Source of the DNA: Flavobacteriales bacterium
GTDB taxonomy: Bacteria > Bacteroidota > Bacteroidia > Flavobacteriales_G > Salibacteraceae
DNA: 64,000 nucleotides
Assembly: GCA_013204105.1 (NCBI GenBank)
Contig: JABMOM010000028.1
Location: forward strand, 62,001-126,000
Direction: 5' to 3'
The translations under genes and the position numbers were made by a program. This document shows positions 15,851 to 39,772 of the stretch, one piece after another. The notes beneath the pieces were generated by a model that saw only the letters and a program-made list of their open reading frames with translations, had not been told where the DNA came from and ran no database searches. Each line of letters starts with the position of its first letter. Position 1 is the stretch's first letter.

Positions 15851-18800
15851 ATGAAAACGAAGTTACTCCTGGCAGTGATGCTGCTGTGCGCTAGCCTATT
15901 CAGTACCGCCGAAGAAATCTTACAAGGCCATCAAGCCTATCAAACCCTTAGAGGAACTGAGCTCCTCCGACTAGAGGATCACACCTCGATTCCAACCTTC
16001 ATTAAATTCAGAGAAAGCGATCGCATCAGCGTCAATAACTGGCAAAGCTGGATGAAAATGCATTTCTTCAAAGAGTCGAAAGGCGTTGGGTTTGACCTGA
16101 TCGGTGAGCAATCTGACAAAATGGGCATGACCCATTACCGCTACCAGCAAACCGTAAGTGGTGTGCCCATGTCCTTTGCCATTTGGATTGTCCACACATT
16201 GAACGGCGAGGTCGTCAGCATGAACGGTGAGTTGTTTGAGAATATCCCGAGCACTCAGCCATCGCTCACTGAGCAAGCTGCGCTACAAGCGGCCTTGGAT
16301 CACATGGACGCCAGTACCTACATGTGGGAAGTACCCGCCGAAGAGGAAATGCTGAAAATGATGCAAAACGACCCGACGGCAACCTATTTGCCCAACGGAT
16401 CCTTAGAAGTGTTTACAAGCGGATTAGATGGGAAGACCATAGAGCACCATCTTGCCTGGAAATTTGACATCTACGCCCACACTCCCCACGCTCGAAAGGA
16501 ATTGTACTTCGACGCTTCTAATGGAAGCCTCTTATTTGAAAATGAGCGCATCCATCATGCAGACAGTGCCATTACCGCTCAAACCATGTACTCAGGTGAG
16601 CAAACCCTCATAGCCGATCATGACAACGGCAACTTCTGCTTGCATGAGACAGGACGAGGCAACGGTATCCACACTTGGAACCTGAATTATGGAACAGACT
16701 TCTCGGCAGCCGTCGATTTTTGTGATTCTACCAATGTATGGGACGACACCTTGAATTTCGATCAGTACAGCACCGACGCTCATTTTGGGACGGAGATGTA
16801 CTACGACTACCTCATGGATCGATTCAATCGCAACAGCATCGACGACAATGGTTTTGCCTTGCACAGTTATGTGCACTACAGTACAAACCTCGTCAACGCT
16901 GGATGGGATGGAGCGCGTATGATTTATGGCGACGGCAATGGCGGCGCAGTTACCCCTCTAACCTCCTTGGATGTTTGCGGTCACGAAGTGACACATGGCC
17001 TCAACACATTTACCGCCAACGAGGTATACTGGAAGGAAGCAGGGGCGCTGAATGAGAGTTTTTCGGACATATTTGGTTCTGCGTTGGAATTCTATGTGGA
17101 TCCAACATCCGCTGACTGGACGATGGGTGAAGACTTCGGGCTTATCATTCGCTCAATGTCCAATCCGAATCTATATGGACAGCCAGATACATACTTAGGA
17201 GGGTCATGGCAAACGACCGCCGGAGACAATTATGGCGTTCACACGAACAGTGGTGTTCAGAACTATTGGTTTTACCTCATCTCTGAAGGTGGTTCTGGCA
17301 CGAACGACAACGGAGACGCCTTCTCTGTGGACAGCATTGGCGTGATGGACGCAGAGGCAATTGCTTTCCGCAACTTGACCGTATATATGACGCGATTCAG
17401 CAATTATGCCGACGCTCGCTTCTATTCTATCCAAGCAGCCGTAGATCTTTTTGGCGCTTGCTCTCAACAAGTAGAAAGTACTTGGTCTGGATGGTATGCA
17501 GTAGGCGTTGGACCTGATTTTTCTTCGAATAGCGTTTCTTCGGACTTTGTCGCCAACCTAACCTCCAATTGTTCTGCGCCACTAGCTGTCCAATTCTACA
17601 ACCAGAGCTACCAGGGAAACACCTTCTTATGGAACTTCGGTGACGGAAACACTAGCACAGCATTTGAGCCAACCCACACCTATACTTCGGCTGGAGACTA
17701 CACAGTTTCTCTGCATACATCGTCTTCTTGCGGTGCTGATTCCATCACCAAGGTGGACTACATGCGCGTTGGCTCGAGTGATACCTGCCACGTGCTTTTA
17801 GCGAGCAATGGGACGGCCGTTACTCAAACCAATTGCGAGGGAATCGTTTACGATGACGGCGGCCCTATGTATGGCTACAGCCCCAACAGCGACGCGATGA
17901 TTACGATTGCACCGACGGGTGCCCAAAGCGTAACGCTGACCTTCTTGCAGTGGGTAATTGTGTGCGACGGCGCAGACTACCTGTATGTATATGATGGGAG
18001 CGACAGCCTAGCACCTCTCTTGGGTCTGTATTGTGAAGACTCTCCGCCTCCAGCTAGCATTACGTCGTCAGGATCAGCGATCACCTTGGTCTTCCGATCC
18101 AATGAAGAATGGTTAGAAGACGAGGGATTTGCCGTGGCTTGGGCGTGCAACACCCCTGAAGAAGCTCCCATTGCAGGTTTTTCAGTAGACAGAACTTACA
18201 GCTGCGGTGGCACCGCCAATTTTACTGACCAATCTGCACTCGGTCCTAATACAGCAACTTCATGGTTCTGGGATTTCGGCGATGGAAATACCAGCACGCT
18301 TCAGAACCCGAGCCATACCTACCAAAACGAAGGTGTATACACGGTCAAATGCGCTGCCATCAACCCGTTTGGAACAGACACCATGACCATCGTAAACTTG
18401 ATCGAAAAAGCCCTTCCGATGACTCCAACTGGACCGGATGTAGAGGTTTGCCCGGGAGATCAAGCCACTTTGATTGCTTACAGTACTGGAACCAATACTT
18501 GGTATGACTCCGATACTGGATCCACCGTATTGACGGTAGGTGACACCTTCGTTACTCCGATCGTGAATCAGTCTACCCCGTTCTACGTAGAGAACTATGG
18601 AGCAGTGACTACGGACACAACGGGGGCACCCAACAAACTCATCGGAACTGGAGCCAATACAAGCCTGGATCAGGGACTGTACTTCGATGCGCTATCTGAC
18701 TTCCGATTGCATGCTGTAACGGTCTACACCCTTTTGCCTGGAGATCGACATATCTTTATTGAGCATCCTACCAACGGGGTCGTCCACGACACCACGATTA

Positions 18801-23106: not shown

Positions 23107-26100
23107 ATGTTGAAGCGATTCTTGTTCCTCCTTGCCATTCTCAGCCTAACAAACGTCCATGCCGAAGAGATCCTCAGAGGTCGAGACGCGCATCAAGTCA
23201 TTCCAGGCGCCGAAGTGATTCGATACCGAGAATACTCGGAGATCCCAGTATTCATCAAATTCAGGGAAAATGCCCAGATCGATTACTCCGACTGGGAGGA
23301 ATGGATGAAAGAGCGCTACTTCAATAATGCGCATGAAGTAAGCTTTGAGTTGAAACGTGATGAATATGACCGCTTAGGCGTGCGTCATCAAGGGTTCATT
23401 CAAAAGATTGGTGGCACCCCAATAGCGATGAGTATTTGGGCTATTCACGTCATGGATGGAAAGGTGGTGAGCATGAGTGGTCGTCTATTCGATCCTTCAG
23501 AATTGTCCAAAGCAACTCTATCTGAATCTCAAGCGATGTCCATTGCACTGGAATATATTGGTGCAACTACCTATATGTGGGAGGTTGAGTTAGAAGAACA
23601 AGGTCTGCAATCAATAGAAAATGATTCCACAGCGACCTATTATCCGGAAGGATCTTTAGCCTACATGGTAAACGACCCGTATGCGTCTTCCGAATTGCTG
23701 AGGCTGACGTGGAAGTTCAACATTTACGCGAGTGAACCCATGTCGCGTCGTGAGATCTACATCGATGCGGAAAATGGAAACCTGGTTTTTGAAAACAACT
23801 TGATCCACCACGTGGATAGCAACAGCGGCGCGGTGACAGGATACAGCGGCCAGCGAGACATCGTTTCAGACTATACCGGACAATACTTCCGTTTACGAGA
23901 AAGCGGCAGGGGAAACGGCATCTTTACGTATGACATGAACAATGGAACCGGAGGACTGGGAACAGACTTCATCCACAGTGATCACATCTGGGATACGACA
24001 ACGATTGAGCGTTTCGGAACCGATGCGCATTGGGGATCGGAGATGACCTACGACTACTTCATGAACCACTTCAATCGAAACAGCATTAACAATGCTGGAT
24101 TCGCGCTCGTAAGCCGGGTTCACTATGGCACCAATTACGCCAATGCCTTTTGGAATGGTTCGGTAATGACCTATGGCGATGGGGGCAGTGGAAATGCTCC
24201 ATTTACAGCCTTGGATATCGCAGGACATGAAATTACCCACGGATTGACAACCTTCACTGCTGGACTCATCTATGAAAAGGAATCAGGGGCTTTGAATGAA
24301 AGCTTCTCCGATATTTTCGGTGCTGCCATTGAATTTGATGCCTTGGGCTTTGCAAACGGGGACTGGCTTATAGGAGAAGACCTCGGTTTCATCATCCGGT
24401 CTATGTCTAACCCAAATTCACAAGGAGACCCTGACACATACAAGGGGACCAACTGGCATTACAGCGCCTCTGACAATTATGGCGTGCACACCAACAGTGG
24501 TGTTCAGAATTATTGGTTCTACCTGCTTACTGTTGGAGGCACAGGCACCAACGATATAGGAGACGACTACGACGTAACGGGCATTGGTGTTGATGACGCT
24601 GGAGCAATTGCATATCGAAGCTTAACTACGGCAGGTTATCTCAACCCAACGAGCGACTACTTGGATGCAAGGTTCTGGGCCATTGAATCTGCCATGGATC
24701 TCTTCGGTCCATGCAGTCAGCAACTCATCAGCACTGGTAATGCTTGGTATGCGGTCGGCGTTGGCACTCCTTATGCGGATGATGTTACGGCTGACTTTGT
24801 TCCTAGCTCAACCGGTGATTGTTCAGTGCCACTCACCGTCCAGTTCTCGAATGTGAGCTCAAATGCAACCTCTCAGTTTTGGACCTTCGGCGATGGAGGC
24901 TCCACTCAACTATTGAATCCTAGTCATACTTATACCTCAGCGGGAACGTACACTGTGACCTTGGCGGTTTCTTCTACTTGTGGAACAGACACGTTGGTCA
25001 TGACCGATTTAATCGAGATTGGCCCCGGCGCTCCTTGTGAGGTGACCATGCCGGGCAACGGTCAGTTCTCTTCTTCAGACGATTGTGCTGGAACCCTGGT
25101 GGACGATGGAGGTACGACACAAAACTATTCCGACGACAACGACAGCTACTTTGTCATCTCGGCCCAAGGTGCGGCCACCATTACCCTGACATTCAATGAA
25201 TTCAACGTCCAACCGGGAGGCGGCAATAACTGCATCTACGACTTTCTGGAAGTGTACGATGGGGCTGGCTTAAACACACCGTTGATCGGTCGCTACTGCA
25301 ACTCTAACCCTCCTCCCTCTACCCTCACCAATACAGGAGACAAACTAACGATCCGCTTTGTATCCAACGGAGGCGTGAACTGGGACGGTTTTCGCATCGC
25401 GTGGGAATGCAACGCACCCACTACCCCACCCTTGGCCGACTTTGAGGCGGACGTGGTTCAAACTTGCGACGGCGTGGTGCACTTTACGGACCTCTCTCAA
25501 AACGGAGCCGACAGCTGGACGTGGGACTTTGGAGATGGAAATAGTGCTACTACCCAAAACCCCGCACATACCTACGCTGCAAGTGGTGACTATACCGTAG
25601 AACTGACCACCGGTAATGTGATAGGGAATGACACTGAAACCAAGACCAGCTATATCACCGTCGCATTTCCTGATGCACCTGAAGGGGAAGACGCTCAGGT
25701 CTGTCCAGGTGATCAAGGAACGTTGATTGCCAGTGGGGTTGGCGAACTACGCTGGTATGCCTCTTCCTTTGGCGGAGACGTAATCCATATTGGAGACACA
25801 TTCGTCACACCCATTGTGCTGCAGTCAACCCCATATTATGTGGAATCTGTTGTCCAAAGCTCTGCGAAGACCGCGGGTCCTATCAACAATGGCTTCGGAC
25901 AAGGGGGTTACCTTGGTAGTCCTGCATCGCTATATTTTGACGCGCTTTCTGATCTGAACCTGCACAGCCTTAGGGTCTATGCCAATGCAGGTGGTCAACG
26001 CAACTTCATCCTGAAAGACGACCAAGGATTTGTAGTGGCGGACACGACGCTCCCCGTTCCGAATGGAGAGCAAGTGGTCGTGTTGGATTTTCAAATCGAG

Positions 26101-26574
26101 GCAGGCAACGACTACGAACTGACCTTAGGGGCTAACAACGCCATCAACCTATTCCGCAATACGACCGGTGTTAACTTTCCGTACACCCTTGACGGTATGG
26201 TGAGAATCACCTCGTCCAGTGAGAACGGCGCCTACTTCTATTTCTATGATTGGCAAGTGGAAGAGATCTGCATCAGTGAAAGAGCTGAGATCGCTGCCAG
26301 CACAGGAGTCTGCACGGGGATCAATGAAATCGGTAACGCTCAGGTCTCCATCTATCCGAATCCTTCCAATGGAAACTTCCAAGTTGCATGGGAAGGCATG
26401 GCGGTAGATCGCATTCAAATAATCAATGTACACGGTCAGGTCATTGCTCAGCGTTCTGTCAACAAGGGAACGGATAACACCTCCATCAACTTGAGCGGAC
26501 AATCTGCTGGGATCTACCTCATCGAGTTAATCGGTGAGGGTGTTCGAGAGCGGCGAAGATTAATAGTGGAATAA
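23107..26574 (+). CDS. M4 metalloprotease with PKD/CUB/Ig modules and T9SS tail (paralogue 3)
   Basis: A 1155-residue third copy of the tandem family. Signal peptide about 1-19; HEITH at 374-378 with E398; GVHTNSGVQN histidine present. The first PKD carries WTFGDGGS, slightly degenerate relative to the WxFGDGNTS of the others; then a CUB-like domain (YDFLEVYDG), a second PKD (WDFGDGNS), Ig-like CPGDQGTL, the unique beta domain (RNTTGVNFPYTLDG) and the type A tail (SIYPNPSNGN ... GIYLIEL). It ends five bases before the stop of the convergent PD40 gene with no visible terminator between them. As with its paralogues, activation probably needs removal of the propeptide after export. Confidence 0.95.
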   Translation: MLKRFLFLLAILSLTNVHAEEILRGRDAHQVIPGAEVIRYREYSEIPVFIKFRENAQIDYSDWEEWMKERYFNNAHEVSFELKRDEYDRLGVRHQGFIQKIGGTPIAMSIWAIHVMDGKVVSMSGRLFDPSELSKATLSESQAMSIALEYIGATTYMWEVELEEQGLQSIENDSTATYYPEGSLAYMVNDPYASSELLRLTWKFNIYASEPMSRREIYIDAENGNLVFENNLIHHVDSNSGAVTGYSGQRDIVSDYTGQYFRLRESGRGNGIFTYDMNNGTGGLGTDFIHSDHIWDTTTIERFGTDAHWGSEMTYDYFMNHFNRNSINNAGFALVSRVHYGTNYANAFWNGSVMTYGDGGSGNAPFTALDIAGHEITHGLTTFTAGLIYEKESGALNESFSDIFGAAIEFDALGFANGDWLIGEDLGFIIRSMSNPNSQGDPDTYKGTNWHYSASDNYGVHTNSGVQNYWFYLLTVGGTGTNDIGDDYDVTGIGVDDAGAIAYRSLTTAGYLNPTSDYLDARFWAIESAMDLFGPCSQQLISTGNAWYAVGVGTPYADDVTADFVPSSTGDCSVPLTVQFSNVSSNATSQFWTFGDGGSTQLLNPSHTYTSAGTYTVTLAVSSTCGTDTLVMTDLIEIGPGAPCEVTMPGNGQFSSSDDCAGTLVDDGGTTQNYSDDNDSYFVISAQGAATITLTFNEFNVQPGGGNNCIYDFLEVYDGAGLNTPLIGRYCNSNPPPSTLTNTGDKLTIRFVSNGGVNWDGFRIAWECNAPTTPPLADFEADVVQTCDGVVHFTDLSQNGADSWTWDFGDGNSATTQNPAHTYAASGDYTVELTTGNVIGNDTETKTSYITVAFPDAPEGEDAQVCPGDQGTLIASGVGELRWYASSFGGDVIHIGDTFVTPIVLQSTPYYVESVVQSSAKTAGPINNGFGQGGYLGSPASLYFDALSDLNLHSLRVYANAGGQRNFILKDDQGFVVADTTLPVPNGEQVVVLDFQIEAGNDYELTLGANNAINLFRNTTGVNFPYTLDGMVRITSSSENGAYFYFYDWQVEEICISERAEIAASTGVCTGINEIGNAQVSIYPNPSNGNFQVAWEGMAVDRIQIINVHGQVIAQRSVNKGTDNTSINLSGQSAGIYLIELIGEGVRERRRLIVE

Positions 26575-34022: not shown

Positions 34023-34053
34023 GTGCATGGAGTAACGCGGATTTATTTTTCGA

Positions 34054-34106: not shown

Positions 34107-35900
34107 ATGCGATTCCTTTATGTACTTCCCTTGGCACTTATGTCGGTATTTAGCATCCATGCCTTTGGGCAGTGCAACAATGTATTGACCAATGGCGATG
34201 CCTCTTCGGGTTTAGCGGCTTGGAACTTTTCGTCTGGAACGGGAACCACCTGGACTATTCAAAACAACACCTACGGTCCTGCATTTGTCGCTTCGTATAA
34301 TTGGACCACCATGAACCAAACCGTGGACCTCTGGGCGAATGGCTACAGTGCCTCCTACCTCGACAACCTTGAGCCTGAGATCTCTTATATGCAGATGTAC
34401 AGGGGGCATACTGTCAATTATGCGGACAAATACTATTACAAAGTCGAACTGAGAAGCACAACGAATCAAGTCATTGCCAGTTACAGCCTCGGATCACAAT
34501 CCAGCGCCATTACAACTACCTCGGCATGGGATACGGTTGCAGGGAGTTTCACCAATTACGGTTCCGGTGTTCGGTATGTACGGGTAGAATGCGGGGGCGA
34601 TGATGCAGAATTCTGGGCTGGCAACTACGGCACGATCGTAGACAACAGCGTCGTGAGTGTTGCCAACATCATCAATGCCAATATTTGTTCTGGCACCTAC
34701 CTCTTCAACGGACAAGTCCTCAGCACCTCTGGGCAATACACGGGTAATTTTACAGGGCAGTACGGATGCGACTCCAACGTCATACTCAACTTACAAGTAG
34801 GCCCGTACAACATCAGCGACACCTTCGAACTCTGCAATGGTGACACCTTCTACTTCGACGGCTCATCGTATACCAGCACTTCTACCCTATCCGGTAATTT
34901 TTCTTCTACCGCTGGATGCGATTCAAACGTCAATTACCAAGTAAACTTCCGCGACACCTACAACGATAGCATCAATGCGGGCATTTGCCCAGGAGAAGGC
35001 TATGACTTTGATGGGCAGATGCTTTTCATACCTGGTAATTACTCCGGAGCTTTTACCAGCCAATACGGATGTGACTCCTTGGTGGAATTGGCATTGGTTT
35101 TCAATCCTGTGGATTTTTTACAGATCACCGATTACCTCTGCCCTGGGGAGACCTATGACTTTGGAGGAACGCCGATCACGGCTGCCGGAACCTATACCGG
35201 CCAGTTCACCAACGGCTATGGCTGCGACTCTACCGTGATGCTGACCCTCCTTCAAGATCAGGAGTACGATATCGAAGAGCAAGTGGTCTTGTGCGAGGGG
35301 GAAAGCATATTCTTAGGCACTCAGACGATCACCGAGGCTGGAACGTATTCGGAAACGTTTGCCACCAGCGGCGGAGGCTGTGATTCTATTGTCACTCTGG
35401 AAGTTTCTGTGATGGACATCAACACTGGGGTAACGATTGGAGAGACCTTCTTATCATCCAAAGATGGGCAAGCAGGAAGCACCTATCGATGGCTCAATTG
35501 CAATCAGGAAAAGACGGTTATCGCGGGAGCTGCCAGTCAGTCCTACAATCCGCCCCTCGGTGGATCCTACGCTGTAGAGGTAACCAATGGAGATTGTGTG
35601 GATACCTCGGCGTGTAAGAAGTTCACGCCCGTTGGATTGGAAGAGCTCAATCGCACTTCTCTTTCCGTTTATCCAAATCCTGCCAATGACATGATTCAAG
35701 TCGTTGCAAATGAACAGTTGCGCATAACGGCTTTGCAGCTCACAGATATGCAAGGGCGTATTGTATTGCAAAAGCGCATGGCGGCAGGCCAAGGTAAATT
35801 TGACCTTGACATCAGCGGTGTAGCCGTTGGTTCCTATGTGTTGTCGGTTCAATCCGTTGACGGAGATTGGTTCCAACACATACTTTCTGTGGTGCGCTAA
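34107..35900 (+). CDS. T9SS cargo with FBA-like glycan-binding N-terminus and five GCDS repeats
   Basis: A 597-residue protein from ATG 34107; signal peptide about 1-22. Residues 23-182 closely follow the F-box-associated (FBA) domain of eukaryotic FBXO2/Fbs1: N-terminal VLTNGDASSGLAAW, FVASYNWTTMNQTVDLWANG, LDNLEPEISYMQMYRG, a KYYYKVEL strand, and SFTNYGSGVRYVRVECGG with DDAEFWAG. The Trp (W170) matches a key sugar-binding Trp of Fbs1; the preceding Tyr is Phe here. Five repeats of about 65 residues follow, each with C-x-GE/GD-x-Y/F-F-x-G and GCDS (about 190-455). An Ig-like domain with WLNC and a type A sorting tail (VYPNPAND ... GSYVLSVQ) end it. Probably a secreted glycan-binding surface protein; binding is inferred. 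Confidence 0.85.
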   Translation: MRFLYVLPLALMSVFSIHAFGQCNNVLTNGDASSGLAAWNFSSGTGTTWTIQNNTYGPAFVASYNWTTMNQTVDLWANGYSASYLDNLEPEISYMQMYRGHTVNYADKYYYKVELRSTTNQVIASYSLGSQSSAITTTSAWDTVAGSFTNYGSGVRYVRVECGGDDAEFWAGNYGTIVDNSVVSVANIINANICSGTYLFNGQVLSTSGQYTGNFTGQYGCDSNVILNLQVGPYNISDTFELCNGDTFYFDGSSYTSTSTLSGNFSSTAGCDSNVNYQVNFRDTYNDSINAGICPGEGYDFDGQMLFIPGNYSGAFTSQYGCDSLVELALVFNPVDFLQITDYLCPGETYDFGGTPITAAGTYTGQFTNGYGCDSTVMLTLLQDQEYDIEEQVVLCEGESIFLGTQTITEAGTYSETFATSGGGCDSIVTLEVSVMDINTGVTIGETFLSSKDGQAGSTYRWLNCNQEKTVIAGAASQSYNPPLGGSYAVEVTNGDCVDTSACKKFTPVGLEELNRTSLSVYPNPANDMIQVVANEQLRITALQLTDMQGRIVLQKRMAAGQGKFDLDISGVAVGSYVLSVQSVDGDWFQHILSVVR

Positions 35901-35956: not shown

Positions 35957-36059
35957 CTTATCAAGAAAGACCGAGGGATTAGGCCCTTTGACGTCTTAGC
36001 AACCTCCGAGCTTCGGAAAGGTGCTAAATCCGACTCCACCGCCGGTGGGGAAAGATGAG
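35957..36059 (+). ncRNA. SAM-I (S-box) riboswitch
   Basis: The leader of metH shows P1 (CTTATC 35957-35962 with GATGAG 36054-36059), the P2/k-turn region (GAGGGATTAGGCCC), the conserved TTAGCAACC, P3 (CCGAGCTTCGG), AAGGTGCTAAATCCGAC and P4 (CCACC-GCC-GGTGG). These are the hallmarks of the SAM-I aptamer. It should sense S-adenosylmethionine and turn down metH/metF expression when SAM is high. No terminator with a T run is obvious between 36059 and the ATG at 36108, and no Shine-Dalgarno is present, so the expression platform is unclear. Confidence 0.93.
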
Positions 36060-36107
36060 TTCAAGATAGATACCCTCTATTTCTTGACAGGTCACAGATA
36101 CACGACA

Positions 36108-37106
36108 ATGACGCTATACGACCTGGCACAACATAAGATCCTCATCCTCGACGGAGCGATGGGAACGATGATTCAACGGCATTCCTTGGATGAAGATGAC
36201 TTTCGCAATGCAGCGTTGAAGGACCATCCGAATTCCTTGAAGGGCAACAACGACTTGCTGTCGCTCACGCGACCCGACATTATTTTAGACATCCACCGGA
36301 AGTACTTTGAAGCGGGATGTGATATCGTTGAGACCAACACTTTCAGCAGCACGACCATCGCCCAAGCCGACTATGCGCTCGAGCATCTCGCCTACCCTTT
36401 GAATTTAGCTTCTGCACAATTGGCGCGGCAAGCAGCAGACGAGCACAGCACCCCCGATCGACCGCGCTTTGTGGCCGGATCGATGGGGCCGACCAACCGA
36501 ACCGCTTCCATGAGTCCTGATGTGAACCGCCCTGGATTCCGAGCCATCACCTTTCACGCGCTTGTAGACGCCTATGTGGAACAAACCAGGGGTTTGATGG
36601 ACGGAGGAGTAGATATCCTGATGGTCGAGACCGTGTTTGACACACTCAACGCGAAAGCGGCTGTGTTCGCCATACAATCTGTATTCGATGAGCGTGGGAC
36701 GACCCTGCCGATCATGGTGTCTGGCACGATCACCGATGCGAGTGGGAGGACGCTCAGCGGACAGACCGCGCACGCCTTCTTGATTTCGCTTTCGCATGTT
36801 CCCATGTTTTCCATTGGCCTGAATTGCGCACTCGGGGCAGATCAGCTCATGCCGTACATCGATACCTTGAGTCAGCACGCAGACGTATTGATCTCAGCCC
36901 ATCCCAATGCTGGACTCCCCAACGCCATGGGCGCCTATGATCAAGACCCTGAAGAATTTGCTGCGTTGCTCAAGGAATACTTCAAACGTAACCTGATCAA
37001 CATTGCCGGTGGTTGCTGCGGCACTACACCCGATCACATCAAGGTCATGGCCGAAGTCGCGGCGGATTTCGCTCCTCGTCCCATCTCAACACGCACAACG
37101 GCATGA
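36108..37106 (+). CDS. metH: Methionine synthase part 1: homocysteine S-methyltransferase domain
   Basis: A 332-residue protein from ATG 36108; the longer frame starting at 36021 begins inside the riboswitch and is discarded. It contains only the homocysteine-binding barrel: [11 protein letters not shown] at the start, ETNTFSST, and zinc ligands C240 (GLNC) and C303/C304 (GGCCGTTP). In one-chain MetH this is the first of five modules. Here the gene stops after it and the next gene supplies the rest. The stop and the next start overlap as ATGA, indicating translational coupling. The pair must assemble to transfer the methyl group from methyl-THF to homocysteine via cobalamin. Confidence 0.95.
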
Positions 37107-39772
37107 GCGATCGATCGGACATAGTACTTGAGCTTTCTGGCTTGGAACCCTTGGTAGTGCGCAAGGATTCAAACTTCGTCAACGTGGGTGAGCGCACCAA
37201 TGTAGCCGGCTCCAAGAAGTTCCTTCGACTCATCAATGAAGGCGACTTCGACGAAGCACTTTCCATCGCCAGAGACCAGGTCGAAGGCGGAGCACAGATC
37301 TTGGACGTGAACATGGATGATGGTCTGATCGATGGCAAGGAAGCCATGGTCAACTTCCTTAACCTCATCGCTGCTGAACCAGATATTGCACGGATTCCAA
37401 TCATGATCGACTCCTCCAAGTGGGAAATCATCGAGGCAGGTTTACAAGTGGTGCAAGGAAAGGCAGTCGTCAACAGTATCAGCCTCAAAGAAGGCGAGGA
37501 AAGCTTTATACAACAAGCCAAGGCAGTACAGCGCTACGGTGCTGCAGTCATCGTCATGGCCTTCGATGAAGAGGGTCAAGCCGACAGCTATGCCCGGCGC
37601 ATCGGAATTTGCGAGCGCGCCTATCGCCTACTCGTCGACCGCGTCGGCTTTCACCCGAAGGACATCATCTTCGATCCGAACATCTTTCCCGTGGCGACTG
37701 GCATGGAAGAGCACCGCCAGAACGCCTTGGATTTCTTCCGGGCCACTACTTGGATCAAAGAACACCTTCCCCACGCCCACGTGAGTGGTGGGGTGAGCAA
37801 TGTCTCCTTCTCCTTTCGAGGAAACAACAAGGTGCGGGAAGCCATGCATTCGGCCTTTCTCTACCATGGGATCAAAGCCGGTATGGACATGGGCATCGTC
37901 AACCCAACGATGCTGGAGGTGTACGATGACATTCCCAAAGACCTGCTAGAGCGCGTAGAAGATGTACTGCTCGACCGACGCGACGATGCTACGGAGCGCC
38001 TGATGGCATTCGCGGAGAACGTAAAACAAGATGTAAGGACCGAAAACGGGACGCCAGAGTGGAGGACTTGGGACGTTAGGAAACGCATGGAATATGCTTT
38101 GGTAAAGGGCATTGCGGACTTTATCGTTGAAGACACGGAAGAAGCGCGTCAGCTGTTGGAGCGACCCTTGCACGTTATTGAAGGGCCGCTGATGGACGGC
38201 ATGAACGTGGTCGGTGATCTCTTTGGATCCGGAAAGATGTTTTTGCCGCAGGTGGTGAAGAGTGCACGGGTCATGAAAAAGGCCGTTGCCTACCTCACCC
38301 CCTACTTGGAAGCTGAAAAATCTGACGGTGCGAAGACCGCAGGAAGGATCTTGTTGGCCACGGTGAAGGGCGACGTACACGACATCGGCAAAAACATAGT
38401 TGGGGTGGTGCTCGCATGCAACAACTATGAGGTGATCGATCTTGGAGTGATGGTTCCGGCAGATAAGATCTTGCGCGAGGCGATTGCACAGGAAGTAGAC
38501 ATCATCGGATTGAGCGGACTGATTACACCATCGCTGGATGAAATGATTCATGTAGCGGAAGAAATGGAGCGCCAAGGCATGACCTTGCCGCTACTTATCG
38601 GAGGAGCCACCACTTCAAGGGTGCATACGGCCATCAAGATCGAGCAAGCCTACCCACACGGCGTGGTGCATGTAAACGATGCCTCTCGCGCAGTTCCCGT
38701 GGCTGGAAAATTGAATTCCGAAGCACGCGACAACTTTCTTCAATCCATAAAAGAAGAATACGTCACCGTGCGAGAAAACTACGCGTTGTCTCAAGGTAGG
38801 AAGTCCTATTTGCCGCTGGAGGACGCCCGCAACAAAAAAGAATCCGTCGATTGGAGCGCGTACAATCCAACTGTCCCAAAACGACTGGGCGTAACCAGCA
38901 TAGAAGCAAGCGTCGAGGACTTGAGGCCTTTCATCGATTGGACACCCTTCTTTCACACTTGGGAGATCAAGGGTAAATTCCCAGAGGTCTTTGAGCGTGG
39001 CGGCATAGGTGAGCAAGCGCGTTCCATCTACGACGATGCTAATGCCCTGCTCGACCAGCTCGCAAACAGCCGCCAACTCGGAATCAAAGGAGTGGTTGGA
39101 TTGTTCCCCGCAAACAGCGTTGGAGACGACATTGAGGTCTACGCAAACGAAGATCGAACCGAGTGCCAAGACGTCTTCCGAACCCTTCGCCAACAGCAAA
39201 AAAAGACGGCATCCGAACCGAATTTAGCGATGGCTGACTTCATTGGCCCAAAGGGAATCAACGATTACATCGGAGCTTTTGCGGTTACGACTGGATTGAA
39301 CATAGAACCCTTGATCGCCGAACGCGAAGCAGACCATGACGACTATGGTTCGATCATGGTGAAGGCTGTGGCCGATCGCCTTGCCGAGGCATTTGCGGAA
39401 TTTCTGCATCAAAAAGTACGGCGAGAATTTTGGGGATATGCCAGCGATGAAGCATTGGGCAACGACGACTTGATCAAGGAGAAATACAGTGGCATACGTC
39501 CAGCACCTGGCTATCCGGGCTGCCCGGACCATCTTGAGAAGCTGGCGATATGGCGATTACTCGACGTAGAAAAGCACACGGGAATCACCCTAACCGAGTC
39601 ATTGGCAATGCAGCCGGCGGCTTCTGTGTGTGGCTACTATATCGCACATCCCCAATCGCGCTACTATGGTTTGGGTAAGATCCTGGATGATCAAGTGGAA
39701 GACCTCGCTCAACGCAAGGGCATGGATAAAGAAGAACTAAAGAAATGGTTGAGGCCCGTCCTCGCCGAATGA
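37103..39772 (+). CDS. metH: Methionine synthase part 2: pterin, cobalamin and activation domains
   Basis: An 889-residue protein from ATG 37103, overlapping the preceding stop. Domain order: methyl-THF (pterin) binding ([14 protein letters not shown] at the start, [14 protein letters not shown]), B12 cap, cobalamin-binding Rossmann domain with the lower axial ligand H426 in VHDIGKN plus [13 protein letters not shown], and the C-terminal reactivation domain with [12 protein letters not shown], which binds SAM. All parts of MetH except the homocysteine module are present, so the two genes together equal one complete B12-dependent methionine synthase. Division of metH at this point is known in Bacteroidota. 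Transcription is presumably controlled by the upstream SAM riboswitch. Confidence 0.96.

Follow-up and report, generated by a model that had tools for sequence, protein, structure and literature searches.

A full-length F-box-associated domain in a putatively secreted protein of a Flavobacteriales bacterium and its candidate glycan-binding aromatic cluster

The F-box-associated (FBA) domain is known from F-box ubiquitin ligases of vertebrates, for example FBXO2 (Fbs1), in which it recognises sugars. Bacterial matches to its Pfam family, PF04300, are probably already present in sequence databases through automatic annotation. The residues of Fbs1 against which GlcNAc-GlcNAc is stacked are Phe177, Tyr279, and Trp280 (PMC4603797). 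FBXO44 (FBG3) possesses similar aromatic residues together with an alanine after the tryptophan, yet its sugar binding was undetected (PMC4603797). Fbs proteins have been described in a review as existing only in vertebrate genomes (PMC6389600). Fbs1 has also been engineered as an N-glycan capture reagent, and the binding of complex N-glycans was improved in a human variant that combines a Phe-to-Tyr change at the position of F177 with E174R (PMC5457524). In this comparison human F173 was regarded as mouse F177, which was deduced from the equivalence of Ser155 and Asn159 in the same paper. No description of bacterial FBA domains was found in the open-licence PMC literature. The family is a known one, and its bacterial secreted members seem to be undescribed in the open literature searched.

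The window analysed here is a stretch of 64,000 nucleotides from a Flavobacteriales bacterium, and one of its genes codes for a protein with an FBA domain in the front part (Table 1). The frame was read from an ATG, and an in-frame GTG is also present upstream at 34023. The nearest relative (G414) carries an intact orthologue at the corresponding place. The signal peptide was recognised by a basic start, a hydrophobic stretch, and a closing Q-C, and the orthologues have xAQCNN at the position matching its end. Repeats similar to the five Cys-containing ones are found elsewhere in the window's genome with identities of 27–39%. The type IX secretion system (T9SS) sorting tail claimed by the initial annotation was recovered with two profiles, and the TIGR04183 match is above the family cut-off. 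The tail supports the accompanying proposal that the protein would probably be displayed outside the cell. The search of the 597-residue protein gave no F-box family match even at an E value of 10, and no glycoside hydrolase domain was found in it by Pfam search. The tail itself is most similar to that of the T9SS M36 family (NF038113). Another frame of the window (23107-26574, +) was read by eye as a large M36-like metallopeptidase that has PKD-like domains and carries a T9SS-like tail.

Table 1. Position and basis of the features of the FBA protein gene in the window.
Feature	Position	Strand	Basis
597-aa secreted FBA-repeat-T9SS tail protein (ATG to stop)	34107..35900	+	open frame, profile matches, G414 orthologue
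Signal peptide, residues 1-21, MRFLYVLPLALMSVFSIHAFG	34107..34169	+	by eye
FBA domain, residues 25-185	34179..34661	+	PF04300, PDB matches, fold Z 12.5-14.2
Tyr64, equivalent to Fbs1 Phe177 (GlcNAc-stacking)	34296..34298	+	alignment; F177 role PMC4603797
Phe169-Trp170, equivalent to Fbs1 Tyr279-Trp280	34611..34616	+	alignment
Five Cys-containing repeats, ~50 residues each	34674..35429	+	pattern C.G..Y.F.G..L...G.Y.G.F....GCDS.V.L.L.V
Linker or Ig-like region preceding the tail	35439..35651	+	position only; no Pfam match
T9SS type A C-terminal sorting domain	35667..35897	+	PF18962 E 8.8e-11, TIGR04183 E 1.2e-7

The PF04300 profile was aligned with the domain from position 9 to 175 of its 175 positions, with an E value of 4.6e-30 and a score of 105 bits against the curated cut-off of 32.4 bits. 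The initial annotation had proposed an FBA domain in its whole length at residues 23-182. The full-length domain is indeed there, but its bounds have to be moved because the actual match runs from residue 25 to 185. The motifs quoted at that time are well aligned with those of Fbs1 (FVASYNW with FASSFEW, VDLWANGY with IDLQAEGY, and SFTNYGSGVRYVRV with TFIDYGPGVRFVRF). In the phmmer search against the PDB, significant matches were obtained only with Fbs1/FBXO2 (2rj2, E 5.5e-19), FBXO6 (E 4.5e-16), and FBXO44 (E 2.5e-15), and the next entry appeared at E 0.28. A profile of the bacterial FBA domains found Fbs1 at E 1.7e-31, with unrelated nanobodies appearing from 7e-5. Judged from its sequence, the front part of the protein is a genuine member of the FBA family. 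For the fold, two template-free AlphaFold models were built from 6 and 9 sequences, and their confidence was low with mean pLDDT values of 56 and 58. In the first model, nine FBA entries came on top with Z scores of 9.8–10.7, followed by 7.7 for the next entry. In the second one, the nine FBA entries listed were again on top with Z scores of 12.5–14.2 over 132–139 aligned residues, and the next entry was at 8.4. Foldseek agreed with an E value of 1e-6 and a probability of 1.00, although the TM score of the first model was only 0.45, and all ten of its matches with E values below 0.001 were FBA structures. FBXO44 ranked alongside Fbs1 in the fold comparison. The domain is therefore predicted to have the FBA beta-sandwich fold seen in Fbs1. 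The loop with the Phe-Trp pair showed pLDDT values below 50 in the second model, and because it was so poorly predicted the exposure of the pair could not be judged.

The FBA domain is scarce among bacteria. Within the window's genus, PF04300 matched 5 of 13 genomes, and it matched none of the 22 other genomes in the family and none of seven more in the order. Three of 345 Spirochaetota genomes were also positive, all from one order of 30 genomes. A weak match in another Bacteroidota genome (G237, E 8.5e-4, under the cut-off, with one internal stop) looked spurious and was rejected. For the phyla besides Bacteroidota and Spirochaetota, coverage came solely from two short peptide patterns run over 84,980 species genomes. 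These patterns detected the four remaining carriers of the genus and a single Spirochaetales MAG, and a scan of this kind undercounts. The spirochaete domains are accompanied by LamG, by He_PIG and PKD, or stand alone behind a lipoprotein-like start. The LamG-FBA protein of the Spirochaetales MAG (L021) is encoded on a 1.07-Mb contig among ordinary bacterial genes. No match to the FBA domain was found on plasmids. A hypothetical protein of Microcystis phage Mel-JY01 (L008, 2884-3516) gave a weak tblastn match to the FBA domain (29.8%, E 7e-3) and had no Pfam match. Long Thr-rich proteins with a distant FBA relative were observed on phage-type contigs (L014, 4875-7034; L015, 3654-6932; L016, 1-1626; and L045). 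The probability of this phage-contig domain against FBA by hhalign was 95.7, and PF04300 found no match in L014 or L015. Glycosyltransferase-like genes, read by eye, adjoin the Thr-rich protein in L014.

The FBA gene is flanked on one side by an NlpC/P60-like gene, recognised by eye, and on the other by a SAM riboswitch with metH. The riboswitch (RF00162, 35955-36061, +, 88.3 bits) is directly before metH, which is found in two frames (36021-37106 and 37103-39772) and is followed by an MTHFR-like gene. This gene order is shared with the closest sister genome (G414) only. The sister species G408 (L033) lacks the FBA gene at this site, where about 220 bases separate the NlpC-like gene from the metH that follows it. 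The three other carriers have the gene at different sites, and carriers and non-carriers are interleaved in a comparison of the NlpC-like gene. Considering the empty site, the varied locations, and the interleaved carriers, the FBA gene seems to be an accessory gene moved or lost as a unit. A transposase-like frame is found just upstream of the gene in G413 (L005, 62-1231, −) and is a possible vehicle for movement. On another contig (L012), two further stretches near its FBA gene (1322-2068 and 16032-16352) have 27–29% identity to the FBA protein and probably represent repeats, or else sorting tails, that belong to different secreted proteins.

Compared with three divergent orthologues, identity amounts to 62, 71, and 75% over the FBA part and to 26, 51, and 47% over the remaining protein. 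The dN is approximately 0.2–0.4 in the FBA part versus 0.5–1.0 in the rest. In the comparison with the closest sister, both parts show 92% identity and dN/dS is 0.07. These values indicate that the FBA domain is what selection chiefly preserves. L020, one of the orthologues, retains the FBA domain while SprB and HYR modules take the place of part of the modules behind it.

The sugar site was compared with that of Fbs1 residue by residue. The initial annotation had matched the Phe-Trp pair with the sugar-binding pair of Fbs1, and FWA (169-171) is in fact aligned with Tyr279-Trp280-Lys281. The third stacking aromatic, Phe177 in Fbs1 and Tyr64 here, had been unmentioned. All three positions are thus aromatic with two conservative changes. 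Tyr64 is compatible with binding because the Fbs1 variant with improved binding of complex N-glycans has Tyr here in addition to E174R. Among the eight bacterial copies, the tryptophan at position 280 is invariant and only Tyr or Phe occurs at position 177. At position 279, the genus copies have Phe, Phe, Tyr, Phe, and Asn, and the spirochaetes have Ser, Ser, and Phe (Phe/Tyr in 5/8). On the other hand, the Phe-Trp pair alone proves nothing, since FBXO44 keeps like residues with no detected sugar binding. In the distantly related phage family (GGDDxEFWAGNYGP), a tryptophan likewise precedes a small residue and Gly, and therefore the tryptophan may be structural. As for the polar contacts of Fbs1, D216 is replaced by Val and K281 by Ala. 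The mannose-facing beta2-beta3 loop with N159 carries a deletion and is approximately 14 residues shorter. The loss of this loop and of the polar contacts makes an intact high-mannose N-glycan core an improbable ligand and speaks against the earlier suggestion of N-glycan binding. From these alignments, sugar binding by the bacterial FBA domain is plausible, and specificity for the N-glycan core is not supported.

The N-terminal start of the type NLLxNGDxxxGLxGW is common in secreted carbohydrate-binding modules. This point would count for the idea that an ordinary galactose-binding-like module resembles FBA by chance or through its composition. The sequence-level comparison already refutes this idea. 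An HMM made of the five genus sequences alone detected Fbs1 at E 4e-22 and gave E values from 1e-23 to 8e-19 for the three spirochaete domains, and the best E value among 10,000 shuffled copies was 0.28. The shuffled copies score so far below the real domains that a chance likeness is excluded. PF04300 is also specific: although secreted beta-sandwich modules are abundant in Bacteroidota, the window's genome is the single one above the cut-off among 395 from this phylum, and none of 14 control genomes matched. The fold match to FBA far exceeds that to CBM16 and other modules. The probability of mere chance is thus next to nil. A recent horizontal transfer, by which the bacterium would have acquired a gene fragment of FBXO2 type from an animal, would fit with the patchy occurrence within the genus, the empty site in the sister species, and the vertebrate-only description of Fbs proteins (PMC6389600). 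However, the window copy is 31% identical to Fbs1, which is no higher than its identity to the spirochaete copies (29–34%), and the nearest spirochaete copy is closer to Fbs1 with 42%. The GC content of the domain (0.50) is that of the window (0.49), and the five genus copies are already up to 39% different from each other. Such a transfer was rejected as the leading idea because of the identity to Fbs1 and the native base composition, and it is considered very improbable. Likewise, the term eukaryote-type used by the initial annotation is not supported as a statement of origin, since Spirochaetota carry the domain and one of their copies is nearer to Fbs1 than the window's. In the opposite direction, FBA could have been a carbohydrate-recognition module of secreted bacterial proteins since ancient times, and gene transfer could have brought it to an animal ancestor, where it was joined to an F-box. 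We regard this only as a tentative and rather doubtful proposal. A tree of nine sequences is useless for the direction because it has long branches and a single animal sequence.

For the function, the reading that we prefer, with a probability of about 0.6, is a surface-displayed or released glycan-binding adhesin-like protein with the aromatic cluster Y64/F169/W170, encoded by an accessory gene of the genus. The protein would be exported by Sec, as the signal peptide read by eye suggests, and would pass through the type IX secretion system. The FBA domain would then be at the free end, held out on the repeat stalk. With less certainty, carbohydrate may be contacted in the Fbs1-like loop region through the three aromatics. 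The ligand would probably be a GlcNAc-containing or other extracellular glycan rather than the intact high-mannose N-glycan core. The adhesin-like reading is favoured by the extracellular-type architectures of the other bacterial FBA copies, which have LamG or He_PIG/PKD. Carbohydrate binding is common among extracellular galactose-binding-like domains. This background, along with the conservation of the FBA domain far beyond the rest and of the aromatic loop in 4/5 genus copies, weighs against a true FBA fold that binds no sugar and either mediates contacts between proteins or caps the repeat stalk structurally. That alternative is nevertheless conceivable, if unlikely, considering that the pattern of Tyr, aromatic, Trp, and Ala is like that of non-binding FBXO44, that the polar sugar contacts are lost, and that FBXO44 ranks with Fbs1 by fold. 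A module for harvesting chitin or N-glycans, in which the bacterium would feed on GlcNAc polymers or host N-glycans, could explain the partly retained GlcNAc-stacking aromatics. Against it, the protein has no glycoside hydrolase domain, the neighbours are metH and the NlpC/P60-like gene rather than a polysaccharide locus, and GH18 gave no match in the window's genome or in three of the four other carriers. The harvesting role is thus improbable, and feeding on chitin is left with no support because the window's genome has no GH18 match.

The bacterial FBA proteins may form a class of bacterial surface lectins. The presence of the full-length secreted domain in two bacterial phyla provides outgroups for the origin of the vertebrate lectin, and if the proposal of a bacterial source were true, a vertebrate lectin of glycoprotein quality control would be bacterial in origin. 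Since Fbs1 has been engineered as a capture reagent for N-glycans, the natural variants of its sugar pocket can be useful. Among the known systems, CBM16-type galactose-binding-like modules are alike in the general beta-sandwich fold and the secreted setting, but their fold Z is approximately 7.6 versus 14.2 for FBA and their sequence match is not significant. The spirochaete proteins (L021 from the Spirochaetales MAG, and L023 and L024 from the same order) resemble the window protein in scoring above the PF04300 cut-off, in the extracellular-type architecture, and in the kept tryptophan. They differ in that they share 28–35% identity with the genus copies, have different partner domains, and lack a T9SS tail. 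FBXO44/FBG3 shares Tyr at the F177 position and Ala following Trp with the window protein, but it is a cytosolic F-box protein with Tyr-Trp instead of Phe-Trp. Finally, Fbs1/FBXO2 is alike in full-length homology, predicted fold, and the aromatic cluster, which is Tyr, Phe, and Trp in the window protein. Apart from the changes in the sugar site, the difference is in the setting: Fbs1 works in the cytosol with an F-box/Skp1-binding part, whereas the window protein is devoid of this part and would present the same domain as a secreted protein.
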